NCBI RefSeq assembly: GCF_036373705.1 | Contig: NC_089855.1 | Span: forward strand, 3,868,501-3,932,500 | Direction: 5' to 3' | DNA length: 64,000 nt | Source: Amia ocellicauda | Lineage: Eukaryota; Chordata; Actinopteri; Amiiformes; Amiidae | In this document: positions 7,011 to 25,281 of the stretch, in pieces | How positions within the stretch are numbered: position 1 is the stretch's first letter | Layout of the letters: each line of letters opens with the position of its first letter | The notes under the pieces: generated by a model | Database searches by the model: none | The model's input: only the letters and a program-made list of their open reading frames with translations | What the model was told of the DNA's origin: nothing | Made by a program: the position numbers and the translations under genes

Positions 7011-7018
7011 TATTTAAG
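7011..7018 (+). promoter_or_regulatory. TATA-like box of the first rightward gene
   Basis: TATTTAAG lies 66 bases before the ATG at 7085, just inside the left terminal repeat. Together with the CRE-like cores in the repeat it looks like an early viral promoter. Confidence 0.6.
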
Positions 7019-7084
7019 AACCCGCGCTGCTTTTAGGCAATACCTCTTTAATTCTCAGCATCTGAAACATCCCGCTTCTTCAAC

Positions 7085-7795
7085 ATGTCCAGCGACATCA
7101 ACATGAAACCCCGCAAGAAACAATCCCGGGCAAGGGTTCCTGTACTCACCAATTTGAAGATTGAATGCTCCTGGGTGTTGTTCTGGGGGGGTCGACGGGG
7201 TTACCGCTTTAAAAGGGATCCCAGCTATGTTGGAGTGGAGCTTTTTGCTTTGGGAGAGAAGGAGGGTACGTTGGAACTTTTTGAGACGGTGATTGAATAC
7301 TCTTATGAGGACTGGTTGAAGGTGATGGCATGGAGAGACCTGGGGCTTGTGTATAAGACTCTAGAAGGCTTGCAAGAGGTTCCAAGAGAAGGCGAAACGG
7401 AGTCCCTGACTCAGAGTTTTGAAAGGTGTGAATGGGAAAGCTTGCAGAACTACGGTACAGTGGTGAAGAGTCTATCTCTAACTACAGATCGTAAGGTTTT
7501 GTTTAGCAGTACCCTGATTACAAACCCTATTGAAGGGGTTGTGGAGGATCCAGAAAAACAGGTTACTGAAATTATGTTTGACGCCGTGGACTGGCCTTTC
7601 TTGAAAGAGGTCATAAACTGTATAAATGATGGTTTTGACATCTTGACCAAATGTTCACAACTGGATTCGGTTAGAAGGAAAATATGCTGGATTATGGATT
7701 ATATATCCCCCTTGAATGACGACGACGATGATAAAACAGACGACCTGTCGGGGGTTGGAGGGGGGTCTGACGGCTCAGGGGCTACTCTCTTCTAA
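7085..7795 (+). CDS. Unrecognised early-type adintovirus protein, 236 aa
   Basis: I do not recognise a family. The start is basic (MKPRKKQSRAR within the first 17 residues), which could be a nuclear-localisation signal. The middle is mixed and rich in W, E and L. The end is strongly acidic with a run of five D near residue 213, then a Gly/Ser tail. The gene is first on the left end, directly behind the terminal repeat and a TATA-like box. That is where adenoviruses and adintoviruses keep regulatory early genes, so a host-modifying role is inferred from position only. I see no LxCxE motif. The frame is undamaged over 236 codons, unlike hexon, protease and polymerase. Confidence 0.7.
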   Translation: MSSDINMKPRKKQSRARVPVLTNLKIECSWVLFWGGRRGYRFKRDPSYVGVELFALGEKEGTLELFETVIEYSYEDWLKVMAWRDLGLVYKTLEGLQEVPREGETESLTQSFERCEWESLQNYGTVVKSLSLTTDRKVLFSSTLITNPIEGVVEDPEKQVTEIMFDAVDWPFLKEVINCINDGFDILTKCSQLDSVRRKICWIMDYISPLNDDDDDKTDDLSGVGGGSDGSGATLF

Positions 7796-7810
7796 GAGGG
7801 CGGTGTGTCA

Positions 7811-7837
7811 TGACGTAGTGAAGAGATAGGATAAAAG
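7811..7837 (+). promoter_or_regulatory. Promoter of the second rightward gene (CRE-like core plus TATA)
   Basis: TGACGT lies at 7811-7816 and ATAAAAG at 7831-7837, followed by the ATG at 7874. A two-codon mini-ORF (ATG GTT TAA) starts at 7854 in the leader. The CRE-like core is the same hexamer as in the terminal repeats, suggesting shared control by a host bZIP factor. Confidence 0.6.
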
Positions 7838-7873
7838 GCGCAACAATTCATTCATGGTTTAAAATTAAAGAGA

Positions 7874-8722
7874 ATGTCTTACCTGAAAGCTGCGGACGTC
7901 GACAGGCTCTACAGGCCTCTTCAAACCCGGGATCACCCCTGGTTCTATTCCCCAGATTTTGTATACACTCCGGAACCCTCTGACTGCGGTTACCCTCCAA
8001 GACCTCAGACCCCTGTCCCTCAGGACGAAACAACATGCGGGGCGATGGATGTCCAAATGAGTCTCGGGGATCCCCAGCCTCTGGAGCTCATGGAGGGCCT
8101 CGATTTTGCCGAACTGTGTACCGTCTGGGCGTCTCAGGAGGGGGTCAGTCCAATGGATGTAGAAACACCCCACAAACCACCAGGCGACCCAATGAGCATC
8201 GGACTGTCTCGGGGGCGTGATGAAGACGCAGGATTTATGCCCGGGGTATGTGACCAAGTAAGCAGAGTGGTTAAAAGCACCCTGGTGTATATTCTGAGTG
8301 CTCTCATCGACCGAGCTCTGAAAGAAGTCTGTCGGGGGTGTGAAGTGAATCACCCCAGTCAGTTGAGACACAGTTGTTTGTTTGAACCAGACCGTTACTA
8401 TTTCCTGTTCTATTTCAACGTGTTTTACAGAAGACTGAACAAACCGTGGCTGAAACCGGCACTAATCAAGGCGCTGTCTTACTCCCACATACATGTCACT
8501 GCGGGACAAGTCCAGAAAATCATAGATGAGATTTTGCTGGAGCTGAAAAAGGAGCCGTTTATAATAGAGAAACTTGGGCAGCTGCTCAATGACCTGGATG
8601 AGCCGAGTAGAAAAACCGCTGGCAAGCTAAAAGCTTATTTCTTCCGTAAAGAAGTTAAAGCTGGGGGCAGCGACGAAGAATTCGACATCTACGCCACTGA
8701 TTCAGACTCTGACCTGAACTAA
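7874..8722 (+). CDS. Cys/His-cluster early-type adintovirus protein, 282 aa
   Basis: The N-terminal 120 residues are Pro- and Asp-rich and look disordered. Residues 130-240 look folded and contain a cluster C153-x2-C156-x3-H160-P-S-Q-x2-H166-x-C168, which could bind zinc. The next segment is aromatic (RYYFLFYFNVFYRR). The C-terminus is acidic (DEEFDIYATDSDSD). The cluster is reminiscent of Cys/His-rich early regulators of small DNA viruses, but I cannot assign a named family with confidence. It has its own TATA box and lies between two other early-type genes; the next ATG is 12 bases after its stop. Confidence 0.7.
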   Translation: MSYLKAADVDRLYRPLQTRDHPWFYSPDFVYTPEPSDCGYPPRPQTPVPQDETTCGAMDVQMSLGDPQPLELMEGLDFAELCTVWASQEGVSPMDVETPHKPPGDPMSIGLSRGRDEDAGFMPGVCDQVSRVVKSTLVYILSALIDRALKEVCRGCEVNHPSQLRHSCLFEPDRYYFLFYFNVFYRRLNKPWLKPALIKALSYSHIHVTAGQVQKIIDEILLELKKEPFIIEKLGQLLNDLDEPSRKTAGKLKAYFFRKEVKAGGSDEEFDIYATDSDSDLN

Positions 8723-8734
8723 GGGACTTTGAAC

Positions 8735-9241
8735 ATGGGGAATGTTCTGGACTACTTCTGCAACTGGTTCTGTCATCAACACTCTGCAGCTAACCTGAGA
8801 GCGCTATTACACCATGTGCTTGACAGAAAAGTAGCCAACGCGAGCCTTTTCTCTACAGATTTAACCATCGATGAGGATCAACTTTCAAACCTGGAAAAGT
8901 TAATGGTTGCTGTAACAAAGACCGGGGGGTACGAACAATGGGATGAAGCGCTCAAGGGGGCCAAGAATGATATTAGGCCATTTCATCAACATCTGTATGA
9001 CCTTTTACTGAGCATGTTTAATACCCCTCTGTTTACTTTTAAAATAGGTCATATTGTTGTTTTATTTACATATGTAACTAAGGTGTGTGCCTACAAGATA
9101 AAGAAACAGGTATTTGTTGATATAGATCAAGTAACCAATCATCTGATTTCTTTTTGTCTGGACCATAGAAAAAATTGTTGTGTATGTTATACTTTTCTCA
9201 AATGTCTAAAAAGGGGTATCTGCTCTCCTGAAGTTGAATAA
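8735..9241 (+). CDS. Bcl-2-like candidate protein, 168 aa
   Basis: Residues about 103-122 (GHIVVLFTYVTKVCAYKIKK) resemble a BH1 helix pair of Bcl-2 family proteins. The preceding amphipathic segment and the following C-terminal stretch (VTNHLISFCLDH, then an aromatic/Leu-rich tail) fall at the spacing expected for the fold. Adenovirus E1B-19K and other viral proteins of this fold block apoptosis, so the same role is inferred. The canonical Trp-Gly pair of BH1 is absent, so this is a divergent member at best. The ATG at 8735 is used; TTG codons upstream are not credible starts. The stop overlaps a poly(A) signal, AATAAA at 9237-9242. Confidence 0.55.
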   Translation: MGNVLDYFCNWFCHQHSAANLRALLHHVLDRKVANASLFSTDLTIDEDQLSNLEKLMVAVTKTGGYEQWDEALKGAKNDIRPFHQHLYDLLLSMFNTPLFTFKIGHIVVLFTYVTKVCAYKIKKQVFVDIDQVTNHLISFCLDHRKNCCVCYTFLKCLKRGICSPEVE

Positions 9242-9250
9242 AAAACCTTG

Positions 9251-9257
9251 TATAAAA
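9251..9257 (+). promoter_or_regulatory. TATA box of the integrase/late block
   Basis: TATAAAA lies 41 bases before the integrase ATG at 9298, immediately after the poly(A) signal of the upstream gene. It probably starts the rightward integrase and capsid transcript(s). Confidence 0.65.
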
Positions 9258-9297
9258 ACTTTGCGCATAGTGTGGGTCTGTGTGTTTATTTGGCAGA

Positions 9298-10389
9298 ATG
9301 ACTCGGCAAGCTCCCCAAATGCATGAACTATACTACAACCCAGCCAAGATTGGGGGTTTGGCGGGTAAGAAGGGTTTTCAAAGAGGACTCGCTGAGGCCG
9401 GTGTGAAGGTTAATGATGTGGTTGTTTCAGAATGGTTACGGGAACAAGACGCCTATACCTTACATAAACCTCTCAGGATTAACTTTAAAAGAAACCGCGT
9501 ATATGCAACTGACATAGACTCACAATGGCAAATGGATCTAGTCGATATGTCAAATTTATCAAAACATAACAATGGTCACAAATTTATGTTGATGTGTATC
9601 GATGTGTTATCAAAAAATGCCTGGGCTTGCATTCTACATAATAAAACAGGTCGGGCGGTGACAAGGGCCTTTGAGGATATATTGTCCCAGGGCCGATGTC
9701 CTAAAAAACTGCAGACTGATAAAGGAAAAGAGTTTCTCAACAGAGAATTTCAGAATCTACTGAAGAGACACAAAATACATCATTTCACCACCTGTAATGA
9801 GCTTAAGGCATCGGTGGTGGAGAGGTTTAACCGCACCATAAAGACCAAAATGTGGAGATATTTTACAGCGGTCAACACGTTCAAGTATTTTGATAAAGTT
9901 CAGGATTTTATCGATGCTTACAACCAAGGGTATCACACCAGTATTAAAATGAAGCCTATAGATGTTGATCAAAGTAATTCTTTTAAGGTCTATAAAAAAT
10001 TATACGGCCCATTTATTAAGAAGGGAAAAACTACTTATAAGTTAAACATCGGCGATGTGGTTCGCGTTTCAAAGCTAAGGAGTACTTTTGCCAAAGGTTA
10101 TGAACAAACATTTTCTGACGAATATTTTACAGTTACCGAACAGGTGGCTAGAGACCCCCCCGTGTACCGGTTAAAAGACTATGATGGGGAGGATATAGAA
10201 GGAACGTTTTACGAAGCCGAGTTACAAAAAATTATTGTGGGTAAAGACAGTGTATACAGAGTTGAAAAGATATTAGCTGAGAAAACCCAGAACCGGAAAA
10301 AATATGTGTTGGTGAAATGGCTTGGATGGCCTGAAAAGTTCAATAGTTGGGTCCCGGAACAACAGGTTTGTGATATTCAAGCCTTATAA
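9298..10389 (+). CDS. Polinton/adintovirus integrase with chromodomain, 363 aa
   Basis: This retrovirus-like DDE integrase joins viral ends to host DNA and makes the 6-bp duplication seen at the element borders. The catalytic core has D80 (in WQMDLVDM), D141 (in LQTDKGKEF) and E175 (in ASVVERFNRT). An SH3-like C-terminal segment follows (about 250-310). A chromodomain lies at about 321-360 (YRVEKIL, then YVLVKWLGWP, NSWVP), which in related elements reads histone marks and may guide insertion. The frame is intact. The longer frame starting with GTG at 9280 is not credible; the ATG at 9298 follows the TATA box at a normal distance. Penton begins just after its stop. Confidence 0.95.
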   Translation: MTRQAPQMHELYYNPAKIGGLAGKKGFQRGLAEAGVKVNDVVVSEWLREQDAYTLHKPLRINFKRNRVYATDIDSQWQMDLVDMSNLSKHNNGHKFMLMCIDVLSKNAWACILHNKTGRAVTRAFEDILSQGRCPKKLQTDKGKEFLNREFQNLLKRHKIHHFTTCNELKASVVERFNRTIKTKMWRYFTAVNTFKYFDKVQDFIDAYNQGYHTSIKMKPIDVDQSNSFKVYKKLYGPFIKKGKTTYKLNIGDVVRVSKLRSTFAKGYEQTFSDEYFTVTEQVARDPPVYRLKDYDGEDIEGTFYEAELQKIIVGKDSVYRVEKILAEKTQNRKKYVLVKWLGWPEKFNSWVPEQQVCDIQAL

Positions 10390-10435
10390 CAACATGCCCG
10401 CGGGTGTGTTGGGGGCATTACTTTCGATACTCAAG

Positions 10436-11191
10436 ATGGAATCAGGAGGCTTCTACGTGACTCTACCCAGTAACGCCTCTCTCGATATATACCCTAAAAA
10501 TGAAATATCCAGTTACACGGTACAATTTGGAAAATCTATAGATCTAAGGGGGTCGTGGGAAGTGGGGTTGGCGGAAATACAGTATCCTTACACTTGGGCT
10601 GTTTTACAAGATAAGGATGCCACCTTCGCCATTTTTGATGATGTTAAAAAGAGTCAATGGACATTCACGATACAAGGAGGTTATTATGACAATGTGGATA
10701 AAATATTAGATGAGATGCATAAACAGTTCTCAGAAGGCACCCCCAACATCAAGCTATATTACAACCCTATTAAAAACAGAGTGTACAAGGTGTCAAAACC
10801 AGGTATTAGCATTCAAACCAACGGACAACTGGGGCGTATATTAGGGTTCTATTCTGACACAGAGAGCAGGTTCTCAGAAGTGGTGGCCCCCTTCCCGGCT
10901 GACATCAGGGGCGGCTTTTACACTCTTTATGTGTATACGGATATCATAACCCACCAGAGGGTCGGGGATAGTTATGTCCCCCTTTTGAGAAATGTACTTA
11001 TTAAAGGTAAAAGCAATGACATGGTCACAATTACTTATGACAAGCCACACTACGTACCAGTCTCAAAGACCCACTTTGACAACATCACGATCGAAGTAAA
11101 ATCGGATCAGAATATCAACGTACCCTTCCGCTTCGGTAAAGTTATTGTCAAACTACATTTTCGACCCCTGAAACAGTGTGTACATTATTAA
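10436..11191 (+). CDS. Minor capsid protein (penton, single jelly roll)
   Basis: The protein starts MESGGFYVTLPSNAS, and is followed by a run typical of Polinton minor capsid protein (TVQFGKSIDLRGSWEVGLAEIQYP). It would form the five-fold vertices of the virion. The protein is 251 residues from this ATG. An earlier in-frame ATG at 10394 would add 14 residues; 10436 is preferred because its Kozak context is better (A at -3, G at +4) and the family normally starts here. The frame is intact. Its stop TAA is separated by one base from the next ATG. Confidence 0.92.
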   Translation: MESGGFYVTLPSNASLDIYPKNEISSYTVQFGKSIDLRGSWEVGLAEIQYPYTWAVLQDKDATFAIFDDVKKSQWTFTIQGGYYDNVDKILDEMHKQFSEGTPNIKLYYNPIKNRVYKVSKPGISIQTNGQLGRILGFYSDTESRFSEVVAPFPADIRGGFYTLYVYTDIITHQRVGDSYVPLLRNVLIKGKSNDMVTITYDKPHYVPVSKTHFDNITIEVKSDQNINVPFRFGKVIVKLHFRPLKQCVHY

Positions 11192-11192
11192 A

Positions 11193-11681
11193 ATGGCTAC
11201 CTTGAGGGGTTATGTAGATCCTAGCGCCTATGTGGATTATTACAAGATGCAAGCCGGGAACGGCTTGCCCGGTTTTGTAGGAGCCCCCACAATGTATGGC
11301 GCCGGTCTAGGAGGACTCTTTCGTGGTCTCTTTAGAATGGCCGTACCCCTGCTTAAGAGAGGCTTTGCTATAGCCAGACCCCACTTGAAATCAGCGGCTA
11401 AAAATATTGTTAGTGACGTGTTCACCAATGTTATGAACCGGGCAGCTAGCCATGATCAGCAGGAGGGTTCGGGTCTCATGGTAATGGCGAGGAGGGGGGG
11501 TAAAAGAAGAAACAGTATGTGTCCACCAGGGCGACGAAGATCCGTGGCTAACAAAAAACGAAGAATCTCTCATTCTCCAACATATCGTGGAAACACTCGG
11601 AGAAGGAAGCAGCACAAGAAAAAACCTGCAAAAAGAAAGTCTCAAAGAAAGACAAATAGAGCCTCAGGATACATCTTTTAA
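11193..11681 (+). CDS. Basic virion core protein (adenovirus pX/pVI-like), 162 aa
   Basis: The N-terminal part is Gly/Tyr-rich, then comes an amphipathic stretch (GLGGLFRGLFRMAVPLLKRG), and the last 60 residues are extremely Arg/Lys-rich. The layout fits a DNA-condensing or membrane-active core protein of adenovirus pX/pVI type, which would neutralise packaged DNA. Residues 34-38 (MYGAG) match the adenain cleavage pattern (M/I/L)xGx|G, so processing by the viral protease at A37|G38 is possible. The gene sits between penton and hexon. Function is inferred from composition and position. Confidence 0.7.
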   Translation: MATLRGYVDPSAYVDYYKMQAGNGLPGFVGAPTMYGAGLGGLFRGLFRMAVPLLKRGFAIARPHLKSAAKNIVSDVFTNVMNRAASHDQQEGSGLMVMARRGGKRRNSMCPPGRRRSVANKKRRISHSPTYRGNTRRRKQHKKKPAKRKSQRKTNRASGYIF

Positions 11682-11683
11682 AA

Positions 11684-12990
11684 ATGTCTTTTGTCCACAG
11701 TCTATCAGAAGAATGCGTCAAATCAGAACTGGATCTGTTTACAGTTCCATACACTCAAACGAGTATAGATAAGAGCATATATGTAGAGATACCCCCTCTT
11801 TCCGCAATTTCAGATACGGCCCCTCTGGAGTTTTTTATAGCTGGCAATGGCGAGGATTATATTGATTTGAATAACACATTTATTTTAATGAACTGTAAAG
11901 TGACTGATGAGGATGGCGATGCAATCGAGAAGACGGCCAACGCTGGGGTCATCAATTACCCGGTGGCCACCATGTTTTCACAGGTGGATGTGACCCTGGG
12001 AGATCGGCTCATTAGTCAAAGCAGCAATACTTACCCCTATAGGGCCATGATGGAGTGTATCCTTAATTATAGTGAGGAGACCCTAAGCAAACAGTTCAGC
12101 CCCGGCCTTTTCTTCAAAGACACCCCGGAAGCTATGAACGACAAGGATCCAGAGGGACTCAATAAGGGTTTGCAAAAAAGAACGGCCTTTTCAACAGAAG
12201 GGAGGACCTTTGAGCTAATGGGACATATCCATGCAGACATATTTTTCCAAGAAAAACTCATGCTCAAAGGGGTAGACATTAAAATTAAAATGATCCGAAT
12301 AAAAGTGCTTTTTGTCTGATGACCTCTGATACTGAAAAATATAAACTGACCATATTATCGGCCTCGCTGTTTGTGAAAAAAGTATCCGTCTCCCCGGCGG
12401 TTAAACTAGGACATGCGCAGGCTTTAATGACGGCAAACGCCAAGTACTCGATCGAAAGAGTCTATATGAAAGTCCACAGTATCCCCGCAGGGACACGGGT
12501 GATGAACCAGGAAAATCTGTTTCTAGGACAGCTCCCAAAACAGGTTATTATAGGTCTCGTGGTTAATGATGCATTTACCGGGGTTTACAACAAGAACCCC
12601 TTTAACTTTAAACATTATAACGCGGAATTTATAGCGCTGTACGTCGATGGTGTGCAGGTTCCATCCAGACCTTTTCAACCTGACTTTGAAAACGGCAACG
12701 CGGTTCGTGAATATTACAGTCTAGTACTGGCTACGGGTCGCCATCTCAAGGATCAACCTCTGCTGATCGATCGCCGGGAATACTGCAGCGGTTACACCCT
12801 GTACGGTTTCAACCTGACCCCTGACTAAGAGTGTGGACAACATTTTTCACTGATGAAGACGGGCAATATGCGTTTGGAGATGCGTTTCAAGCAGCCTCTA
12901 CCACGCACTGTAAATATGGTCGTGTATGCTGTGTTTGACAACATTAATGAGGTGAATCAGAGGAGAAACGTTCTGTATGATTATTATTAA
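11684..12990 (+). pseudogene. Major capsid protein (hexon, double jelly roll), two lesions
   Basis: The first part (11684 to about 12306) holds the first jelly roll of the Polinton hexon-like protein, including FIAGNGEDYIDLNN and VDVTLGDRLIS. Around 12306-12308 one base appears missing and the product continues in the frame of 12319-12828 with the second jelly roll. At 12826-12828 an in-frame TAA interrupts it; the same frame then stays open for another 53 codons of capsid-like sequence to a normal stop at 12988-12990. Full length would be about 435 residues, usual for the family. As written the gene cannot make a complete capsid protein. The next gene starts one base after its true stop, as at the other late junctions. 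Confidence 0.9.
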
Positions 12991-12991
12991 A

Positions 12992-13548
12992 ATGAACACC
13001 AGAGAGCTCAACCACATCATGAATGCCCTGGCCGGCTCACGGAAACTGTTTCAAGGAGTCTACGCCTGCGACCAGCTGCCTAAATTTAAGATCAAGAATT
13101 TACCTGCATGTACATAATCAACACACACCCTAAAAATATGCCCGGAGAACATTGGCTGGCTATTTATCTAAGGGAGGACCGCCGTGGTGAATTTTTTGAT
13201 TCCTATGGAAACCCCCCGGATTTCAGACCTTTCCCTCGGAAGATCAATAACTTTCTGCTCAACAACTGTCAAGAAACCATTTACAGCGGTCGTCAAGTAC
13301 AAAGTCTTCAGACCTTCACTTGTGGTCAACACTGTGTGTTTTTCTTATATCATAGATCTAAAGGAAGGTCATACCCCGATATTATGGCCTTGTACAGTGA
13401 GGATTTAGGCCAAAATGATAAAAAAGTGGCAGAGTTTGTCAGGACACTGTGGACCCCCCCTTATAACACAATGACTTACGACCCTAGCCAGCCATGTATA
13501 CAGATGGGGTGTTCTTGTGAGGATTTTAAAAGATGTCATGCGTGTTAA
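12992..13548 (+). pseudogene. Adenain-like maturation protease, one frameshift
   Basis: The N-terminal 41 codons read from ATG 12992 in one frame and stop at 13115-13117. The rest continues in another frame from about 13108, consistent with loss of one base at about 13106-13107. The catalytic set of adenovirus-type cysteine proteases is visible in the second part: His in GEHWLAIYL, Asp in FFDSYG, and Gln/Cys in CGQHCVFFL. The C-terminus is Cys-rich (MGCSCEDFKRCHAC). In related viruses the enzyme cleaves capsid and core precursors at Gly-containing sites. Confidence 0.9.
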
Positions 13549-13592
13549 AGTGAAAAAATAATGAAAACAGCCTTTGAATCATTAGTTTTGTT

Positions 13593-13675
13593 TTTATTCA
13601 ACACAAATCTTATACAAAGCAGGGTTATGTTATAAATAAATGTACAACATTTGAAAAAAAAAAAAAAAAAAAAAA
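13593..13675. terminator. Convergent polyadenylation zone and poly(A) tract
   Basis: A plus-strand AATAAA is at 13635-13640 and a minus-strand AATAAA is at 13593-13598, so signals for the two convergent blocks overlap. A run of 22 A follows at 13654-13675. There is no coding sequence between the protease stop (13548) and the next minus gene (13724). Confidence 0.7.
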
Positions 13676-13723
13676 TTGTTTGTCGGTTCCTTATTTACAG
13701 GGGAGACAAATAAAAACATGAGA

Positions 13724-14467
13724 TTAATAAGCTTCCCAACGATGGATAGATCCTGAGGATGGTTGTTCAGCATGGTCAGAGTAATGAGATATCGGAGTCA
13801 GATCAGTCACCACCTCTTTACACAGATGGATTTTTTGTCGCGTTTCCTGGTTAGGGACTGTTGATTGGGGCATGTTCAGACAGGCCATCGCCTGTAGGAA
13901 AGCATTCCAGCCTACAGGTCGGCGACTATCGGGTACCTTATTAGTGCTAGTGACACTCTTCAACAAATCAAACATGTGTGAACCTTTGATCAGTTGTCCT
14001 TTAAAAACAAATTCACCCTGTTCATTCCAAGTCGTTACCCGCGGTTTCTGAACCATTTTGTGCAGAATATATTCTGCATGTCTTTTGCTTCTGGCCGGCA
14101 TGTTTCTCAAAACATCCGTTACAACATCTCCCTCTGAACTCTCAACAGGTTCGGTCACCGCAACATCTTTATCAACCGTACCCCCCGCATCAGCCCCAGA
14201 ACCATTTTCTTGAGAGACCATGGTTAAAGTTAAAATGTTTTGATCTTTTTCACCCTGTCTAACCAGACGGAGGTAGCGCTGTAACGTGTTGCTATACATC
14301 TGGGCTTTGGAATACTGATTTAAATCGGCCCTGGCCAGTATAGCTTTCATTTCAGAGTCCAGGTTGTTTTCGGCCGTTTGTCTAATGGGCTCTGGCCCGA
14401 CAACATTTTTTCTCAGTTTCTCAAGCTGCTCCTGAGGGATCAAAAACATTTTCTGAGCATATTCCAT
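13724..14467 (-). CDS. Conserved Maverick/adintovirus protein of unknown function, 247 aa
   Basis: The N-terminus (MEYAQKMFLIPQEQLEKLR) and the segment KAILARADLNQYSKAQMYSN followed by LQRYLRLV are typical of a protein conserved in Maverick elements. A disordered acidic linker follows (about 85-118). A C-terminal domain has ARSKRHAEYILHKM, then VFKGQLIKGSHMFDLLKS. It is thought to be a virion-associated or assembly factor because it always sits with capsid and ATPase genes, but no activity is established. Its start lies 2 bases after the stop of the preceding leftward gene. The frame is intact. Confidence 0.75.
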   Translation of the reverse strand: MEYAQKMFLIPQEQLEKLRKNVVGPEPIRQTAENNLDSEMKAILARADLNQYSKAQMYSNTLQRYLRLVRQGEKDQNILTLTMVSQENGSGADAGGTVDKDVAVTEPVESSEGDVVTDVLRNMPARSKRHAEYILHKMVQKPRVTTWNEQGEFVFKGQLIKGSHMFDLLKSVTSTNKVPDSRRPVGWNAFLQAMACLNMPQSTVPNQETRQKIHLCKEVVTDLTPISHYSDHAEQPSSGSIHRWEAY

Positions 14468-14469
14468 TA

Positions 14470-14805
14470 TTAACCCACTCTGGAAGCTAGAAGACTGGTT
14501 AGGAAAGGCACGGCTATGCTCAACAGCGGTCCTATAAAACCTCCGGTTTGATTAATCTTCTTTCTTTTTCTTTTAATAGAATACTTCTTATTAGCGATGA
14601 TCTTGATAACCGCTTTTTGTTTTTTGAGTTTAGAATGTTGAGAAGGGGTTAGGGGTATATTACCGCGTAAGATGTTAAAAGCTATTTCACACAGGGTCTC
14701 GATCAAATCCGAGGGGGCCCCAGCCAGCACAGCTTTCCTATGGCGCGGGCTCCCCTCAAATAACATTTGCAAAAGCGGCAGATTTCTTTTAATCCGAACA
14801 GACAT
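14470..14805 (-). CDS. Small basic conserved Polinton protein, 111 aa
   Basis: The N-terminal part has a run recognisable in many Mavericks (GSPRHRKAVLAGAPSDLIETLCE, then ILRGNIPLTPSQHSKLKKQK). A Lys/Arg-rich linker (KRKRKK) leads to a hydrophobic C-terminus after GG (about residues 88-111) that could be membrane-active or buried in the capsid. A minor virion protein is plausible; function is not established. The gene is packed 6 bases downstream of the ATPase stop. Confidence 0.75.
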   Translation of the reverse strand: MSVRIKRNLPLLQMLFEGSPRHRKAVLAGAPSDLIETLCEIAFNILRGNIPLTPSQHSKLKKQKAVIKIIANKKYSIKRKRKKINQTGGFIGPLLSIAVPFLTSLLASRVG

Positions 14806-14811
14806 TCTTAT

Positions 14812-15483
14812 TTATTTCCTTTTCTTTAGCACATACACTGCCGGCCAATCGGGCGGGCACAAACCTGTTCTGAGGCGAAAGTCTTCTGGGGTTTGTGCTT
14901 TTAAGTCCGCAATCAAGTACCCGTAGGGTTTTTTGGTGGCATCCTCAAATGCCTCCAAAAAGAACTTGGTCTGGTTAGGGTACATTTGACGAGCCAAGAC
15001 GGTGACCTGTAGTTTATCTCTGGGGTTTTTAAAAAGAATTATATAATTGGCATTTAAATTAATAGTGCGGCTTTTTTTACCTTGAAAAAATAGATTTTGA
15101 ACTAAATAAATAATACTTAAATTCCTATGATGAGTGTACTTTGTGAAAGCTTTTTCCACTTCACTGTTGTCACCGGCCTGCTCCATCAGGTCATCAAGGA
15201 TCACTAGATTAGTTTGTCCGGGCGGGAACAGGTCATCGTCACACAACGAGGCGGGGAGACCTTGCACAAATTTCAGATTATTTTTTTTCGATGCCAAATC
15301 ATCGTAGAGAGGTTGCCAGCAAGAGTAACACCACACTATGTTGTCAAGAGCTTGGGACACGGTTGCGTCCACATCTTCTATGATGTTCTTTATAAGATAG
15401 CTCTTACCCGAATTGGAGGGACCGGCTATAATACAGGAGAAAGGGTGTTGAAGTCTGTTATCAAAACCACCGCTAATATCCAT
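14812..15483 (-). CDS. FtsK/HerA-type genome packaging ATPase, 223 aa
   Basis: Walker A is GPSNSGKS at residues 21-28 and Walker B is NLVILDD at about 92-98. The region HHRNLSIIYLVQNLF matches the sensor/arginine-finger area of Polinton packaging ATPases. The enzyme would hydrolyse ATP to pump the genome into preformed capsids. The frame is intact. Its first 11 bases overlap the end of the polymerase gene, consistent with one leftward transcription unit. Confidence 0.95.
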   Translation of the reverse strand: MDISGGFDNRLQHPFSCIIAGPSNSGKSYLIKNIIEDVDATVSQALDNIVWCYSCWQPLYDDLASKKNNLKFVQGLPASLCDDDLFPPGQTNLVILDDLMEQAGDNSEVEKAFTKYTHHRNLSIIYLVQNLFFQGKKSRTINLNANYIILFKNPRDKLQVTVLARQMYPNQTKFFLEAFEDATKKPYGYLIADLKAQTPEDFRLRTGLCPPDWPAVYVLKKRK

Positions 15484-18400
15484 AAGGCAGAGTGGTATAA
15501 TCAGTCTTCAACACTCTTTTATTGTACACCACCCTGAACCGTTTGTTTAGTGATCTATTTTCCAATGTGTACCCCTTTTTATTGCGATAGATCTGATTTC
15601 CGGCTGTAATAATCTCGCGAGGAGGCGCGTCTTTCTCAGTTACAAAACTTTGTACCAGGGTCGTCAGAGACTTGATGTTAATGAGCTTGTTGTTACAATG
15701 GTTCAGAGTGAAACCCTTAACTTTCATACAGGTCTTACCCGCAGCCGTTCTGTATGCGTAAGTCTTAGGACCCCCTGAAACAAACTCCACTATGTGGTCC
15801 TGAGGATCTAGCTCGCTCGTTAACTCCCCAAGGTAGTCCCCGAGGGGAGGGACCCAATCCCCTGGCCTGGTGACAAAGATTACAGAGTCAGTATCATGAT
15901 AGAGCGTGCGTTCCTGCAGCTGATCCATTAAGTTGTACAGTTCAAGCCGGGCGTAAGCCGTGGTAAAAACCGCTATGAAAACATTAACGTTCTCCTGTTT
16001 GGTGGGGAAATCTTTAGGGGCCCTCCACTGGACCTGTGCCACGTGGTCATTTAAGAATTGAAAGTGTGATACTGCATGTTGTTTGGAAAACATAAATTTT
16101 ATAAACTGTTCAGGGGTTTTAATCAAGGTTGTGTTTAGACGGTTATTTCTTTCCCCAAACTTACCCCACAGACTGTTTAAAATCAGTTTGGACATTTGTC
16201 TCTTGGCGGGGTTTACAGTTATGTTCCCCGGCTCTAGACGGATCCCTTCCTTTTCAAAATATTGCTGAATGTACCGCTCTTTGGCCGCGGAGTCAACACA
16301 CCATGAGGGATAGCCCGATGCCTCCTGTTTCCCTTTCAGATGGGTCATAATGTAATCAGCAAAAAGAGTATCAGATTTTTCAGAAAAATGCCAAACCTCA
16401 TACACCTTACCGACTCTGTAACCTTTCTCCACCGCCTTGTCAAGCTCAATGCTACACCAGACACCCGTCAGCGCTCTCTCGTCATCACTGTGCAGACAAG
16501 AGGTATTTTGATTTTCAGTTTCCACACACGTTCTACACAGAGGGAACATCAATTTTCCCGAACACCTGTAAGGCAACACGGGTAAGAACAGCTCGCGAGG
16601 AGGGTACATGGTGACTTTGATCAAACCAAAGTACTGTCCGATTTCGAGAAAGTCACGATAAACAATGGTTGGATGCCCCACCGGGTACATTTTGGTCTTG
16701 TTGACATAAGGGTACAGACTGGTGAAATCATAGTAATCTACTCTCTCACCCTCCTTTACCTCATAATGTAAACAGAGGGCGTTGGTACGACCCCCAAATA
16801 ACGCATCCCTGGGCTCTAGACGTTTAGGAAAGTCCAAGGTTTCCATAAACCGTTGTACCCCCACATCCTGTTGCTTCAGGGTCATCCACGCGTGTTCCCA
16901 AATCACCAGCACATTCAAACCATAGGTGTTTTTTAAAGTTTCAATTCGTTCCTGGAAATCATAGTACATATCACCGCAGAGTTTTTGTGTTACGGGGTTA
17001 AAGGTGTTTGGGTCGAAGCACTGAGGACAGCCATGGTAAATACAACCAGCAAACTCATAAGCGGTACGCCGCCCGGACACGTCGCTAAAACCGTCTAAGT
17101 AGTAAGGCCCCATTTTGACTTCCCCTTGATTTAAAGCATGTCTGATGAAGATGTTATCCCGGGCACTCAGATATTCCAGCCACTGTATGGAGACAGTCGA
17201 AAAGTTATTTTGTCTAGCACGATAGTTGTCAGAAGTGGTGACCGCTATAGTGTTTTTCTGCAAGAAATTGGATCGCTACATTTTCATGCAGAGAGACGCT
17301 ATGGTCACACTTTGCAAAGGGTCGAGACCCGATGTGTTGATAACCTCGGCGCGGAAACGCAAACAGGCTTCTTTAAGGATCAACACATCATTTTTACAAT
17401 AAGCGGCCATATCTTCTCGGAAATCAAAAACACCTCCCTTAACCGTATTGTACCATTTAAAGAATTCCTCCCTCTCATGAGACATCATAGTATCAACCCC
17501 ATAATAAGAGGCGGGCGGGTAGGACCCTCGATAATTTTGAGTGTCCTTAGTATTAAAAAAATGGCAGAACCAACCTTTCTTCTGAGCCTCAAAACCCAGA
17601 GCTTTAGGCAAAGCGCTCAATTTCATGGGGAGGAAATTTAACGAGTCTATGTAATGTTGGTTGAAATCTTCGTCGGTGAAACACATGATCTTGCTACCCT
17701 GAGCTATTATTTTTGGGGTCACCCCATTTTCCACCAGATACTTCATCAAAATGTAAGAATCATAACCCTTAGCATTGTGGGCAATAAATGTGTAATTGAG
17801 GTATTTTGGACCGCAATACCGCGTAAAGAAATCCCTGACACAACTCTCACCGCTAGCTGACCACTCACGATCCAACATGTCAATACAGTGTATATAATTA
17901 GCAACGTGGACCCCGTTTTCTTGCCAGCATTCAAAATCAAAAAAGACATACCAGTTGTGCGGCGGCTCCTTTTTAACCGGCTGAATAAAGCACTGGTGTT
18001 CAGACCCCGGGGTTAAATCAGCATTACAGATCCTACATCTCGGCTCCAGACATTTGTGTGGTTTAACCTCATGAAAACGGTACTGGGGGCAACACTGCGG
18101 GCAATATTTAGTTTGATCACAATAACTCCGTTTTTTAACCCCCTCAGCAGCGGCCCTCTGTACCTTATGTTCGGAAAAACAGAACGCGGAGAGACAAATC
18201 CTTAAGCAATCTTTACATCGGATGGTAGGGGCCAAACCCTTACGACATTGCGGATTGAAACAGACGTTACAGTAACCGTCACAGCGGTGCTTAAGCTTAT
18301 CATTGAAGGCCTTATAACACCAATGACAAACATATGAACAACCCAAAAATGCCTTAGGAAGAGAAACAGTGTCTGTGTATGGGTTTCAGGATGTGTCTGA

Positions 18401-19677
18401 AATTTCACAAATACTTCCTTTACCTCACAACGGTACCACACAACAGTTTTTAAAGACAACAACTCCTCAAACATGGTAATGTCTGAAAAGGCAACCATCT
18501 GTTGAGAGTTTAAGCCGGCCCTCTGATGAAGCATTAAAGCCTCTTGCATAGCTTGGGGTTCAGGCATGTCGGGGGTGAGTAGTTTTATTAAACTGTAAGC
18601 AAAACAGAGCTTATTGTCCCCATTGGAACTCACCACTAATTGCCTGAGCTTGTTCCTAATTATGTCGTTCTTCAAGCATTTCGACAGTCTTCTAAGCGCC
18701 CCACCCTCAGGGTTACGAACCACATTCATTACCAGAGACAGACTTTCATCAGCTAAGATGGATGCGTTACTTTGCAATAACGCTTCGATTTTAGCCAGAA
18801 ATTCATCAACATCTAAATTATCTCCACTCAGCATTACAGATAGGTTGCTAAACAAATCATCCCCTCTGAGTTCTAACTGTACAACATCTCGAGGTCTGAC
18901 CCTTTCAGCAACCTGTTCAAGCATGTTTTGCAAGGCCTCGTGTATGTTGACAAATATTTCTGCATAATTGTCACAATTTAAAAGTTCTGCAAAATTAAAA
19001 CGCTGAATAATTTCAAAATTGTTATAGGCCGGTCTATCTATAATCACGGGATCACTGGTACTCTTGGACACATCATTATTTTGAACAAAGCCTTCAACCC
19101 CTACATTCTCACAGAGCATGTCTTCCACAGCCTTATCAGTCTCAGAACCCTCCACATTCCGAACACCCCCACTGCTGACATCTACAAAACCCGCTTTTTG
19201 AGGAGGCTCATTTAAAGCCTGTAAAAGTCCTTCAAAGATATCCAACCGGTTAAAGTCAAGACCCTCCTCTATAGTGACGGCTGCTTCTGCCGCCGTACTG
19301 TGTTCTAATTGTCTCAAATCATTTATAATAGGGGCAGAATTTGGTCGGGGTAGCGTCTCCAAAGCCTCCACCATTTCAAACAAATCGGGGTGAACTAGGG
19401 GTTGAACCTCTATAAGCGCTACCGTTGGGAGGTGGTTATTTAGATCACTGACCATCTGTAACAGGTCAGGGTTCACCGGTAAGTCTGTTAATTCACATTC
19501 TATCGGTGGTGATTGGGGGTTATTTAAATCATTTATCATTTGTAATAGTTCCTGGTTCATTGGGACATCAGAGGAGTTCACAACAGGGCCGGGGATGTTC
19601 TCTCGGGAAGGTCTTTTTGGGGCCCTAACTTGTTCATAATCCTTTAGTTTGTGAGTTCTTTTACCAAGTCCGGACAT
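15473..19677 (-). pseudogene. Family B DNA polymerase (protein-primed type), two lesions
   Basis: The coding region spans about 1,400 codons from ATG 19675-19677. Segment 1 (to about 18380) is a long N-terminal extension with repeated Leu-rich motifs. One base appears missing near 18377-18382 and the product continues in a second frame. That second frame carries a Cys/His-rich module and the 3'-5' exonuclease motifs: DFE (FFDFECW), NAKGYD, and YCKND. An in-frame TAG at 17276-17278 then interrupts it, and the frame continues with polymerase motif A (DFTSLYP), motif B (KLILNSLWGKFG) and motif C (YHDTDS). In its family the enzyme copies linear viral DNA starting at protein-bound ends. This copy cannot encode one uninterrupted enzyme. 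A T/A-rich leader upstream also supplies the poly(A) signal of the neighbouring spliced gene. Confidence 0.93.
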
Positions 19678-19743
19678 TTTTTTATTTATTTTTTATTTTT
19701 CCAACAACCCACAATAGTAAGGCGTTTTGTATCTATTAAAACA

Positions 19744-21767
19744 TTAAATACGGTACAATTCGTTAGTAAGGGTATTAATAAGGGTGTTTTGGCTCTCTAT
19801 CACAAGGTTTTGCCCCACTAACACAAGTCTTTGATTTTGTAACAAAGTATGTAGCAACTCATGCCGACCTTCAGGAAGTAGCTCCGGGGGATGGTGGCCT
19901 GGCTCAGCTTCAAAGGATGGTCGCTCCGGTAAATCTCGGTCGAAGGAGGCAGGGAGCGAGCGTATACTCACGGACGGAGACCAAGAAGGCCTTTGCGGTG
20001 ACACCCTGGCCAATCGCGGTGTACTGTTCAGCGTTTCTGTAGCCAAGAAACGGGGCTGGGGGGACGATGTTGAAACCAGTCCGTCGTTGGGTGGTGTGTC
20101 AACCCTGACTGACGGCGACCCCTGAGGTTGTTGGTTGCCTGTATTTGTTCCGCCCGACAATGCGGCGGGCTGAATCTGGGTTGTTGAATTACCCCCAGAA
20201 GGCTGTGGCCTGAGTAGATGTTGGGGGGTCTCCAAGACCACCGTGGGGGATCCTCTCGGTGATCTCTCCAGGGAAGATGTTTGATCCCACTTAGATGAGG
20301 TAATTGTCCTCAATAGCTCATCCACAGAATGACTATCCCAAGAGTCTTGGGAAGAATAAAAATATACATTACATTTACATCTTTAAACGGCGACAGAAAT
20401 CAAACTTAAAACAACATGTCCAGGACCTTCAAAACCTTTAGCTTTTTTAGACCTTTGAAAATAGGCTTAGCCATTCACTACAACGCCTTATTATTTACAG
20501 ACAATATATTTATTAGGACTTGATAATAAATGTAAAACAGAGAAGCCTCTGTAAATAAACGGTTTCTTAAATGTTTCTTTAAAAACTGTAATATTGTTAA
20601 TAAAACACTTTTTATACACACACACACCACATTTCATTTTTAAACGAACCTTCCAAGTGTAAACGCTTCCTGATCCCGGGACTTCCTGTTTCACAAACGT
20701 TTTCACGATCTGTTTAAATATTAAATACAATGAACACCTTCAAGCCTTTTCCTACAGCCACTTTAAAACAGAAGTATAATTGCGGGAGATAAGCCAAACA
20801 ACTTACTAAAACCTTTCGGACAGCTTTACTTCCTAACCAGACGGTAGGGCAATCGGTCATTTCTAAACACGTGCCCCAGAAACAAGCCTAGACCTGTCCG
20901 GACTTCTAAAGATCTTTCCCAGAACCCCCCGCCCTACAGGAAATGGGCACCCATCACTTAAATATTAGCCCTCAATGGGCAAACAAAGCCCTTTTAAAAA
21001 CATTAAAGTTTGAAAGATCTTACTTACCTCCAAAGAATAATCGTTTCTTATGTTTTTCAGCTGGTAAGAGACATGTTTAACCTTTAACCACCCCGCTTTA
21101 TAAAAAGCTTTAACCTCTTACAAGCGGCAGATATATACTCACCGCTATCAGATACAGGGGCTGACGGCCTTTCAGATTCTTGAAAGGTTACGGTTCTCGA
21201 AGGTAAAACGAAACAAGCCCTCGATGTGGAAGGCCTTTCGTTGTCTCGAACCACGTTTCTTAATACTGTTAGAAAGGATAATTTTTTAAAATTAACAAAA
21301 CTGGCCTCATAAATCTTACAGAAACGTTATACAAACAAACAGGGGTTTAGTTCTTACCCGGTCGGCAGACAGCCTGTCTAGGGACAACCACTTCTCTTGG
21401 TTGATCCTCGGAGACATTAATCACAGGCCTTTCGATAGTTTCTGTGTAATTAAAGAGACCGGCATTAATATATATTAAAACGTTTTCATAACTCTAATGA
21501 GCCGCTTCAAAACCACACACACACCCATACATAAGAACCCATGAGCGCAAACACAAAAATCTTACCGTCGTTGTTCCAGATGATCTCCTCAGCGTTGGGA
21601 ATTAACTCCTGTTGACTGGCTGAAAAATAATTTTACAGAACTTAAAACAGATGTTATAGCCTTATTTACAATACATGCCCACAACACGCTCTGAGTCAAT
21701 GAAAATAATCTGAAGACTTACCTAAAAACTCGTTTAAATCGAAGTCGTTGATGTTGTTTCCGGACAT
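19744..21767 (-). CDS. Six-exon spliced leftward gene of the adintovirus, about 313 aa
   Basis: Exons (minus strand): 21767-21722, 21619-21566, 21441-21358, 21265-21143, 21060-21028 and 20345-19744. All five introns begin GT and end AG (102, 124, 92, 82 and 682 bases). Donors are GTAAGT, GTAAGA, GTAAGA, GTGAGT and GTAAGT. Every intron is phase 1 and the four internal exons are 54, 84, 123 and 33 bases, so any can be skipped without changing frame. The protein starts MSGNNINDFDLNEFL. It contains the short motif ERP at least four times (IERPVI, NERPST, SERPSA, PERPSF). The 33-base exon adds a basic KHKKRLFFG segment. The last exon is Pro/Ser/Gln-rich with a Leu-rich C-terminus that could be a coiled coil (ELLHTLLQNQRLVLVGQNL). 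I do not recognise a family. A regulatory role is inferred from position, splicing and composition. The stop is 19744-19746, and the minus AATAAA at 19681-19686 is a fitting poly(A) signal. Confidence 0.72.
21028..21060 (-). other. 33-base internal microexon with basic KRLFF segment
   Basis: The acceptor is CTCTTACCAG| and the donor is GGAG|GTAAGTAAG. Read in phase it encodes 11 residues including KHKKRLFFG, which combines a basic cluster with a [RK]xLxF pattern like cyclin-docking motifs. The match to such motifs is short and may be chance. Confidence 0.55.
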
Positions 21768-21834
21768 TGTTGATCTTTAGGCTTAAATCGAAAGGTCAAT
21801 ACGAGTCTGTCGAGCTGAAGACCAGACCTTCATA

Positions 21835-21840
21835 CTTATA
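21835..21840 (-). promoter_or_regulatory. TATA-like box of the spliced leftward gene
   Basis: On the minus strand the sequence reads AGTATAAGTATG, with TATAAG at 21840-21835, about 70 bases upstream of the ATG at 21767. It is the only clear TATA candidate in front of that gene. Confidence 0.5.
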
Positions 21841-22740
21841 CTGATGGCCAGATGCTGGATCTGCTTGTAAGGCATTGTTCTGGGCTGGCCTTTGTGCCGT
21901 CCTGTTACCAATTAACATATCAAAACCAACCAATAAAACGACACTGCATCAAATTTCAAATAGAAACCAAGATGGCGACGATCTCTCTCCTCTCTACTCT
22001 AAACTTTTATTAGAACCTTTTGGTCTCTCAAAAAAACATTTTTAAGCATCAAGACCTATAGTCAATAAACACTAAGAATATTTCAGGCCTTTATAAGCGC
22101 TAAAAAACAACCTGAGCCAAGAAAATAACTATAAAGATCTAAAATAAGTAGCGCTTTTACAGTGATTTTTTTTTGTTATTTTTTTAATAGCGATGCTTTG
22201 TTTGGTATTATACAAGTCACAAACTACTCAGAACAGCGTTTATCCCCGCAAAATAGATATTTGGGTTTATTTTACAAAGCTTATAAATTATATAGTTTAA
22301 AAGTATTCTGAATGTTTTGATACCACACGCCATACCTACGTTTGTCTGAGCCCACCCCCGCCCCCCATGGTGTGAGTGATTTAGCCTTGAGTGTTGTGAT
22401 CTATTTAGCATTGAGTGATCAGTTGTTTTTATTTTTTAAATGATTCCTTATCATCAGGGATTGAGACTGCTAAAATACCTTAAAAACATATCCTTATCTT
22501 AAGTCTAACTCTTATGAGCTTTAAGACCCTAGAATGTATTTAAGTAAAACGAATGAACACATTATGTGTGAGATAAAATATAACCACAGCTTTTTTTTTT
22601 TTTTTTTTTTTTTTTACAAAAACAATTAACCTATACACACAAACACCCACACACACACACGCCCTCTTTTTTTAATTTTATTTTTAATTAAATTTGAAGG
22701 GAGAGACAGAGCCATATACATTGGGGTTAACATAAGTACC
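21841..22740. other. Noncoding right arm of the virus
   Basis: No credible gene is seen. The stretch contains scattered stops on both strands, a T run at about 22590-22615 and a CA-rich run at about 22635-22662. Confidence 0.5.
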
Positions 22741-23455
22741 CTATGCAAAACAGGCATTGTTAGGACCTGTGACCATTACAGACAACAGAACTTGTTGATC
22801 TTATAAAATGATTGGGCGAGAGAGACAGAGAGAGAGAGACAGACAGAGACAGAGACAGTGTGAATATGATAAACGCACTATTCAAAATGGCATTGTTAAG
22901 ACCTGGGACCATTACAGACAACAGAACTTGTTGATCTTATAAAATGCTTGGGCGAGAGAGAGAGATAGAGACAGACAGAGACAGAGACAGTGTGAATATG
23001 ATAAACGCACTATTCAAAATGGCATTGTTAAGACCTGGGACCATTACAGACAACAGAACTTGTTGATCTTATAAAATGCTTGGGCGAGAGAGAGAGATAG
23101 AGACAGACAGAGACAGAGACAGTGTGAATATGATAAACGCACTATTCAAAATGGCATTGTTAAGACCTGGGACCATTACAGACAACAGAACTTGTTGATC
23201 TTATAAAATGCTTGGGCGAGAGAGACAGAGAGAGAGAGACAGACAGAGACAGAGACAGTGTGAATATGATAAACGCACTATTCAAAATGGCATTGTTAAG
23301 ACCTGGGACCATTACAGACAACAGAACTTGTTGATCTTATAAAATGCTTGGGCGAGAGAGACAGAGAGAGAGACAGACAGAGACAGAGACAGTGTGAATA
23401 TGATAAACACACTATTCAAAACAGGCATTGTTAAGACCTGGGACCATTACATGTA
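22741..23455 (+). repeat. Tandem array of about 5.3 units of 132-136 bp
   Basis: The marker TGTGAATATGATAAACGC starts at 22859, 22991, 23123 and 23259, and a variant at 23393, giving unit lengths of 132, 132, 136 and 134. Each unit has a GA/CAGA-rich half and a unique half (GGCATTGTTAAGACCTGG, then ATTACAGACAACAGAACTTG). Length differences come from the GA-rich part. Units are nearly identical, so the array has expanded or homogenised recently. It lies just inside the right terminal repeat. Confidence 0.93.
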
Positions 23456-23549
23456 AATTTAAAAAGACCCCCAACCACTACAGGAAGAGCCGACCCATTC
23501 ACACTCTACAGTTGACCAACAAGAACAACAAGAACAACCGGTTATGGGA

Positions 23550-23726
23550 GGCCTTGTTGTTCAGGGTTTTATGGGTGTACACTTTCTGACGGATATGACG
23601 TAGGAATAATTAAGGAAATAACTCTACCTAAAATCACGCCCCCCAATTATGACGTAGGAATATTAATAAGCTTAGGGCATACGTCATAACAAAATAGGCC
23701 GCGCCCAAAAAACCCTACTATCTACT
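23550..23726 (-). repeat. Right terminal inverted repeat of the adintovirus
   Basis: Reverse complement of 6782-6958 with one visible mismatch. CRE-like cores are at 23596-23601, 23650-23655 and 23681-23686. It is followed directly by GTCACA (23727-23732). Confidence 0.95.
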
Positions 23727-23732
23727 GTCACA

Positions 23733-24060
23733 GTTAGGAGCTAAGGGGAAGGGGGCATATGATGATGATTAAAAAGAAGTACACAAAAATAATGTGTCTG
23801 GTGCCTTTGTAAATAGTTTAATGAAATTAAAGGATGCTGATCTGATAAGATACAGCCAAAATTTTGCAATGGACAAATTGTTTTAATTTTTCATTACAGT
23901 TATTGTTTTATTAGTAAGTACTTTCGATTGTCCTAGGACTTTAAACTAGAGTCAATTTGAGAAGAAATAATAATTTGCTGAATAAAGTCCTATTTTCTAG
24001 TGACCCCCACAAATACAACCCACAGCGGTCAAATCCTCTGAAAACAAGAATATATATACA
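23733..24060. repeat. Right remainder of the L2 target, then unassigned A/T-rich sequence
   Basis: The first bases (GTTAGGAGCTAAGGGGAAGG) continue the L2 sequence interrupted at 6781, as judged from the related copy at about 28329-28350. The rest has no recognised feature. Confidence 0.5.
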
Positions 24061-25281
24061 CACTCACCTAAAGGATTATTAGGAACACCTGTTCAATTTC
24101 TCATTAATGCAATTATTTAACCAACCAATCACATGGCAGTTGCTTCAATGCATTTAGGGGTGTGGTCCTGGTCAAGACAATCTCCTGAACTCCAAACTGA
24201 ATGTCTGAATGGGAAAGAAAGGTGATTTAAGCAATTTTGAGCGTGGCATGGTTGTTGGTGCCAGACGGGCCGGTCTGAGTATTTCACAATCTGCTCAGTT
24301 ACTGGGATTTTCACGCACAACCATTTCTAGGGTTTACAAAGAATGGTGTGAAAAGGGAAAAACATCCAGTATGCGGCAGTCCTGTGGGCGAAAATGCCTT
24401 GTTGATGCTAGAGGTCAGAGGAGAATGGGCCGACTGATTCAAGCTGATAGAAGAGCAACTTTGACTGAAATAACCACTCGTTACAACCGAGGTATGCAGC
24501 AAAGCATTTGTGAAACCACAACACGTACAACCTTGAGGCGGATGGGCTACAACAGCAGAAGACCCCACCGGGTACCACTCATCTCCACTACAAATAGGAA
24601 AAAGAGGCTACAATTTGCACAAGCTCACCAAAATTGGACAGTTGAAGACTGGAAAAATGTTCCCTGGTCTGATGAGTCTCGATTTCTGTTGAGACATTCA
24701 GATGGTAGAGTCAGAATTTGGCGTAAACAGAATGAGAACATGGATCCATCATGCCTTGTTACCACTGTGCAGGCTGGTGGTGGTGGTGTAATGGTGTGGG
24801 GGATGTTTTCTTGGCACACTTTAGGCCCCTTAGTGCCAATTGGGCATCGTTTAAATGCCACGGCCTACCTGAGCATTGTTTCTGACCATGTCCATCCCTT
24901 TATGACCACCATGTACCCATCCTCTGATGGCTACTTCCAGCAGGATAATGCACCATGTCACAAAGGTCGAATCATTTCAAATTGGTTTCTTGAAAATGAC
25001 AATGAGTTCACTGTACTAAACTGGCCCCCACAGTCACCAGATCTCAACCCAATAGAGCATCTTTGGGATGTGGTGGAACGGGAGCTTCGTGCCCTGGATG
25101 TGCATCCCACAAATCTCCATCAACTGCAAAATGCTATCCTATCAATATTGGCCAACATTTCTAAAGAATGCTTTCAGCACCTTGTTGAATCAATGCCACG
25201 TAGAATTAAGGCAGTTCTGAAGGCGAAAGGGGGTCAAACACAGTATTAGTATGGTGTTCCTAATAATCCTTTAGGTGATTG
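24061..25281 (+). mobile_element. Tc1/mariner DD36E element, copy 2
   Basis: Same family as 3099-4319, with inverted repeats CACTCACCTAAAGGATTATT at the left and its counterpart ending GGTGATTG at the right. It lies 335 bases right of the viral element. Confidence 0.92.
24209..25249 (+). CDS. Tc1-like DD36E transposase, second intact copy
   Basis: The 346-residue frame is open and differs from the copy at 3247-4287 at only about a dozen residues (for example H172R, C214R, H263N, W to L near the C-terminus). D155, D246 and E283 are all retained. The near-identity of intact copies suggests recent activity of this family in the genome. Confidence 0.92.
   Translation: MGKKGDLSNFERGMVVGARRAGLSISQSAQLLGFSRTTISRVYKEWCEKGKTSSMRQSCGRKCLVDARGQRRMGRLIQADRRATLTEITTRYNRGMQQSICETTTRTTLRRMGYNSRRPHRVPLISTTNRKKRLQFAQAHQNWTVEDWKNVPWSDESRFLLRHSDGRVRIWRKQNENMDPSCLVTTVQAGGGGVMVWGMFSWHTLGPLVPIGHRLNATAYLSIVSDHVHPFMTTMYPSSDGYFQQDNAPCHKGRIISNWFLENDNEFTVLNWPPQSPDLNPIEHLWDVVERELRALDVHPTNLHQLQNAILSILANISKECFQHLVESMPRRIKAVLKAKGGQTQY

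Follow-up and report, generated by a model that had tools for sequence, protein, structure and literature searches.

Vertebrate Mavericks carry accessory regions that hold additional open reading frames (ORFs), and in the survey by Barreat and Katzourakis (2021) no introns were observed in the genes of intact elements (PMC8097293). Among adintovirus genes, a class termed 'Oncoid' is defined solely by short linear motifs (PMC11071296). HPV E1 and E1^E4 are reported to carry RXL cyclin-interacting motifs (PMC5298330), and composite NLS-RXL modules are reported in beta-herpesvirus kinases, RB1, p21, E2F1 and CDT1 (PMC7518283). Our literature search, which was partial and did not extend to the founding adintovirus paper (Starrett 2021), found no spliced vertebrate Maverick gene. 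Here we describe an accessory gene that lies upstream of PolB, on the same strand, in a bowfin Maverick/adintovirus. Sequence comparison makes it highly probable that this gene is real. The best overall explanation, to which we assign a probability of roughly 0.78, is a seven-exon spliced accessory gene whose product we infer to be a nuclear early regulator.

The window, that is, the whole 64,000-nt stretch of DNA analysed, contains a Maverick/adintovirus of the bowfin (Amia) at positions 6782-23726 (16,945 bp, ~16.9 kb). The element is bounded by terminal inverted repeats of 185 nt (left, 6782-6966; right, 23542-23726, 98% identical to the left copy) and flanked at both ends by a perfect 6-bp target duplication, GTCACA. 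An integrase with an rve domain (Pfam, 1.2e-12) and a C-terminal chromodomain (Chromo, 1.1e-9) is encoded on the plus strand at 9280-10389, and the PolB region (DNA_pol_B_2, PF03175, 6.7e-27 and 7.6e-17), which encodes a family B polymerase that is putatively protein-primed, occupies 15473-19677 of the minus strand and follows immediately on the spliced gene. Three frames make up PolB (15473-17263, 17276-18346 and 18202-19677), the third of which has no Pfam match above cut-off. Its closest polymerases are records from fishes, frogs and reptiles, including a minnow adintovirus. It is 53% identical to PolB-C of the Pimephales minnow adintovirus, and since a PolB-C name exists for that virus, part of the frame split may be natural. 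A PolB relative in Brienomyrus stands at 66%. A PolB profile run against viral contigs recovered a pair of loci, 28-37% identical, from a single contig; exon and PolB queries against the viral contigs returned no relatives. Matches to Pox_A32 (4.2e-4) and Peptidase_C5 (0.024) within the element, which would point to a packaging ATPase and an adenovirus-like protease, are both weaker than the curated cut-offs, and the ORFs present between the integrase and the putative protease, where major and minor capsid proteins would be sought, gave no Pfam match above cut-off; a probable major capsid protein, read in two frames, is placed at 11684-12828 by position alone. The two modules lie on opposite strands and are both directed at the element centre, in agreement with the layout given in PMC8097293.

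Other features surround these genes. About five copies of a 132-bp unit are arrayed at 22741-23451, between the candidate promoter and the right terminal repeat. Two Tc1-like transposons (3069-4341 and 24031-25249), 96% alike over 300 nt, flank the element, and an olfactory receptor gene lies at 4376-5455. An accessory ORF of 168 aa on the plus strand (8735-9241) may resemble a viral Bcl-2-type protein; it has no Pfam match above cut-off.

The first-pass annotation had proposed a minus-strand gene of six exons and about 313 codons, joined by five GT-AG introns in phase 1. All five introns are present where it had placed them, each is GT-AG and phase 1, no exon is interrupted in its frame and the total length is 313 aa. 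The exon count did not hold, as a further exon of 60 nt, designated 5b, had been overlooked; the chain comprises seven exons, six introns and 333 codons, with all introns in phase 1. Exon 1 (21722-21767, 46 nt) begins with the ATG and ends in phase 1, and is followed by exon 2 (21566-21619, 54 nt), exon 3 (21358-21441, 84 nt) and exon 4 (21143-21265, 123 nt, with two ERP motifs), all three of them phase 1-1. In the window, exon 5 spans 21028-21060 (33 nt) and encodes the basic RXL-like stretch KHKKRLFF, and exon 5b (20650-20709, 60 nt, phase 1-1) encodes another, RKRLHL. The terminal exon 6 (19744-20345, 602 nt) is Ser/Pro-rich and closes with a stop codon at 19744-19746. Exon 5b splits the fifth of the originally proposed introns and was the top-ranked candidate in a scan of that intron; its donor (GTTCGT) is weak.

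Two candidate signals on the same strand were read by eye: a TATA box, TATAAG, at 21835-21840, ~70 nt upstream of the ATG, and an AATAAA at 19692-19697, between the stop codon and the ATG of the next ORF (19677). The spliced gene (start 21767) and this next ORF (start 19677) share the opening ATGTCCGGA (MSG). Another phase-1 candidate exon, at 20871-20933 (63 nt), was rejected: among 13 chosen rows of the alignment described below, window included, it was open in eight, carried a stop in one and had a length not divisible by three in four.

Related copies were collected from the 988-Mb bowfin assembly. A search with exon 6 gave at least 150 scored matches at 96% or higher, window included, from 978 candidates; two of these 150 carry a stop, a count biased by the fact that the copies were found through exon 6 itself. 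Searching with P0002, one of two NCBI protein models considered below, added at least 131 further matches from 2252 candidates, and with them a second lineage. The gene region was aligned for 81 copies and the window (82 rows), of which 50 were retained after removal of near-duplicates above 99.5%, a step that older segmental duplicates may have survived. Dropped from the counts were seven copies whose 5' part is missing or too short (L033, L034, L042, L062, L069, L089 and L090), one in the wrong place (L053), the window itself (L003) and two unrelated sequences (L001 and L002).

Across this alignment each exon upstream of exon 6 is open in 71-77 of the 82 rows. Exons 1, 2 and 3 are open and in frame in 73, 76 and 72 rows, and exon 4, the 33-nt part of exon 5, and exon 5b are open in 75, 71 and 77. 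The internal exon lengths given by the first-pass annotation (54, 84, 123 and 33 nt) were all found in the window, but the last of them is a truncation: exon 5 has 54 nt and its own acceptor in 70 of the 82 rows, whereas the 33-nt form occurs in the window row only. A deletion unique to the window copy among these rows removed the exon 5 acceptor together with the beginning of the exon, and the phase of what is left is preserved fortuitously by an AG further downstream; one of the five introns had therefore been seen in a damaged state. Copies with an undamaged exon 5 exist, and where the exon has 54 nt the product is 340 aa long, as compared with 333 aa in the window copy. With the native exon 5 considered, the whole chain is open, with an ATG and GT/GC-AG sites, in 41 of the 82 rows (window counted) and in 23 of the 50 deduplicated copies, the remaining rows being variously damaged. 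Of 476 split codons checked across the 82 rows, none reads as a stop, and 81 of these rows end in TAA.

Some copies lack entire small exons. Exon 5 is absent in L011, L013, L017 and L081, and exon 5b in L039, L041 and L081; in the five copies that lack just one of the two, the remaining exons stay in frame. These copies fit dispensability of exons 5 and 5b but could reflect decay. The shared whole-exon deletions (33 and 60 nt), measured within exon columns, may be independent and were not counted as proof of dispensability. In the assembly, copies cluster on one strand of contig C14, with further clusters on C6 (49.5-50.6 Mb), C25, C42 and C372, and some neighbouring copies on C14 lie at intervals of 16.9 or 18.2 kb. 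One of three junction stretches (L093) shows ~1.15 kb of other DNA after the right terminal repeat, before element sequence resumes from position 7205, as if truncated elements and their flank had been amplified in tandem; neither of the other two stretches shows both ends.

To assess the chain statistically, we used a dynamic-programming chain finder that takes site thresholds, an ATG, an open frame and the exon 6 acceptor as inputs. At thresholds of 7/7 and 7/8, it returned exactly the six upstream exons (400 nt), with five introns among them and a sixth leading to exon 6. The original judgement that agreement of the introns by chance was very unlikely is borne out, as none of 300 dinucleotide shuffles, run at 7/7 only, reached 400 coding nt or five introns; the best gave 355 nt and four introns. 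Lowering the donor threshold to 6 led the finder to chains that were different and longer (490 nt in the real sequence), and its result thus depends on requiring good donors. When long ORFs were masked, no other phase-1 chain in the window exceeded one intron on either strand, and chains in phase 0 or 2 did not exceed two. Once the phase rule was lifted, the longest masked chain of the window started at 22489, had six introns and shared the exons of the gene from part of exon 2 onwards. An unmasked control, in which the finder joined 7-8 spurious introns within long ORFs, was uninformative, hence the masked version was used. Applied at 7/7 to 17 chosen other copies, the finder returned exactly 46/54/84/123/54/60 in eight and missed at least one exon in nine; with a looser donor threshold, it favoured other chains in all 17.

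Composition adds to these statistics. GC content is 0.46 in the exons and 0.35 in the introns, and exons 1-5b together have a coding score of +12.9 bits in frame, compared with scores of -27 to -76 for the five remaining frames; 5 of 2000 random placements did as well. Taken singly, exons 5 and 5b score slightly higher in another frame.

Selection was examined in the 50 deduplicated copies by comparing private changes, taken mainly as post-insertion decay, with shared changes, taken mainly to stem from the spread of the element, some of which may represent segmental duplicates. Exons 1-5b (400 nt) carry 30 private indels, seven of them multiples of three, and the introns (866 nt) carry 74, with 17 multiples; shared indels number three in these exons, each a multiple of three in length, and 34 in the introns, with five multiples. 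Frame-breaking indels in exons 1-5b and in introns therefore amount to 23 and 57 among private changes and to 0 and 29 among shared ones (Fisher p = 0.0004). Nonsense changes in exons 1-5b follow the same division, with seven private and none shared. The N/S ratio in these exons is 3.43 for private and 1.87 for shared changes, against a neutral expectation of 3.01, a contrast that is not significant by itself (p = 0.15). In exon 6 the trend is reversed (private 1.75, shared 2.32, expected 2.53) and two nonsense changes are shared, so that this exon looks little constrained. Pairwise dN/dS among 15 representatives is 0.79 for exons 1-5b and 0.71 for exon 6, with similar intron divergence (0.053); as this measure blends decay with selection, the private/shared comparison was preferred. 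The comparison of copies suggests that, as the element spread, the exons retained a continuous reading frame. Together with the chain statistics, it backs the initial proposal of a viral accessory gene made up of several exons, with every intron in phase 1.

A profile protein search (E<=10) that scored 8000 candidates found only two proteins, both from bowfin, and no relatives outside it. These two close proteins, P0001 and P0002, are NCBI models from other copies in Amia ocellicauda. Both join exons 4, 5, 5b and 6, with 5b situated between 5 and 6, and both lack exons 1-3. Within its own copy, P0001 starts at an in-frame ATG of intron 3; P0002 differs at its N-terminus. Since exons 1-3 are absent from these models, the evidence for them comes entirely from the statistics and the comparison of copies. 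At the best P0002 locus (L023), the intron 1 acceptor is altered and exon 3 contains a stop, changes that could explain the N-terminal model of P0002. No Pfam family reached its cut-off with the gene product, nor was a kinase domain detected, and Rfam gave no match at the gathering threshold.

The NCBI models bear directly on a shorter gene consisting of exons 4-5-5b-6 only, with transcription starting further in and exons 1-3 as a chance extension. The start of P0001 in intron 3 and the differing N-terminus of P0002 speak for it, but we consider it quite unlikely: exons 1-3 are open in the great majority of rows, three peptide forms account for 36 of the 50 copies in exon 1 and for 38 in exon 2, exons 1-5b hold no shared frame-breaking indel, and the L023 changes could account for the P0002 model. 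The chain might instead be an artefact, with consensus-like sites and short open stretches aligned by chance beside one real ORF (exon 6); in favour of this, the finder builds chains of 7-8 introns in unmasked coding-rich sequence and favours other chains at this locus under looser thresholds. Yet no shuffle equalled the chain at 7/7, other same-phase chains outside long ORFs have no more than two introns, the frame is conserved across copies and the NCBI models share the junctions, all of which makes an artefact very improbable. Some modular host genes characteristically consist of uniform phase-1, 1-1 exons, and a fragment of a host gene, captured introns and all and now carried as baggage, would also display this pattern. 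Such a capture is rather unlikely in view of the lack of Pfam matches above cut-off, the restriction of the relatives found to bowfin proteins, the compact introns (82-318 nt) and the preservation of the frame in shared changes. The seven-exon accessory gene remains the preferred reading.

As a seven-exon accessory gene, it would be transcribed in the nucleus and then spliced by the host major spliceosome, with phase-1 joints only. With very low confidence (mean pLDDT 36), AlphaFold predicted three helices in P0001, one C-terminal and two short, and otherwise disorder. A product of this kind, largely disordered with a C-terminal helix in the low-confidence prediction, may act as a nuclear early regulator, as judged from gene position, predicted disorder and short motifs. 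The motifs in exons 5 and 5b are well kept (KRLF in 43 and KRLHL in 43 of the 50 deduplicated copies), and in many copies of the second lineage the last F of the exon 5 motif is replaced by C. The chance of finding an RXL-like motif in both exons is 0.0003 with pooled composition and 0.006 with their own composition, for a motif picked post hoc. The strict RXL pattern is present in exon 5 and not in 5b, and the loose pattern in both; strict matches also arise in ~37% (P0001) and ~34% (P0002) of shuffles. Exon 6 contains nine SP/TP sites against 5.2 expected, a slight enrichment (213 of 5000 shuffles were as high). The retinoblastoma motif LxCxE was found in none of the exons, nor in P0001 or P0002.

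Given the RXL-like motifs in exons 5 and 5b and the nine SP/TP sites of exon 6, the likeliest role is cyclin-CDK docking, a leading guess that is itself less likely than not. The motifs, each overlapped by a basic stretch, would dock cyclin-CDK, and this docking would adjust the host cell cycle for replication. The multiple isoforms suggested by the first-pass annotation go beyond what phase 1-1 exons imply, namely that skipping would be frame-neutral; such skipping could switch the exon 5/5b modules, but regulated skipping of these exons seems improbable to us. Equally hard to credit at present is a fuller version, in which exons 5 and 5b would be frame-neutral cassettes, each a nuclear-import and cyclin-docking module, with host splicing setting the number of cyclin-binding modules and, through it, the viral cell-cycle programme.

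A structural or DNA-binding role for the real gene, for example in packaging or tethering the genome as a coiled-coil multimer, would replace cell-cycle control altogether. We give it an appreciable share of the probability, well short of even: the C-terminal helix at 256-294 of the low-confidence model and the basic exons fit such a role, whereas the gene lies upstream of PolB, outside the integrase/capsid module, and nothing was found that favours DNA binding. The nuclear early regulator remains our preferred reading of the product.

What sets this locus apart is the intron-rich structure of an adintovirus accessory gene. Genes of such small-exon structure would be overlooked by single-ORF annotation. 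An accessory gene with seven exons implies that it is transcribed in the nucleus and spliced by the host, possibly with a layer of isoforms, and the accessory regions of other vertebrate elements merit a re-scan for small same-phase exons.

Among the known systems, the beta-herpesvirus kinases U69 and M97 come close in design, since their NLS is reported to overlap an RXL/Cy module (PMC7518283), as it would in the putative modules of the bowfin gene. They differ in being kinases, whereas Pfam found no such domain in the bowfin product. Papillomavirus E1^E4 is itself a spliced product, and the likeness of E1 and E1^E4 to the bowfin protein lies in the RXL motif; in bowfin the RXL-like motifs sit on small cassette exons. 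The 'Oncoid' genes (PMC11071296) also encode an accessory protein with short linear motifs; the bowfin gene differs in being multi-exon and in lacking LxCxE. Similar in setting are the accessory regions of vertebrate Mavericks, which according to PMC8097293 occupy the same kind of place, outside the core modules and between PolB and the terminal repeat, within elements of similar size that likewise have a 6-bp duplication and a fitting layout. Those elements are described there without introns, whereas the bowfin gene has six.
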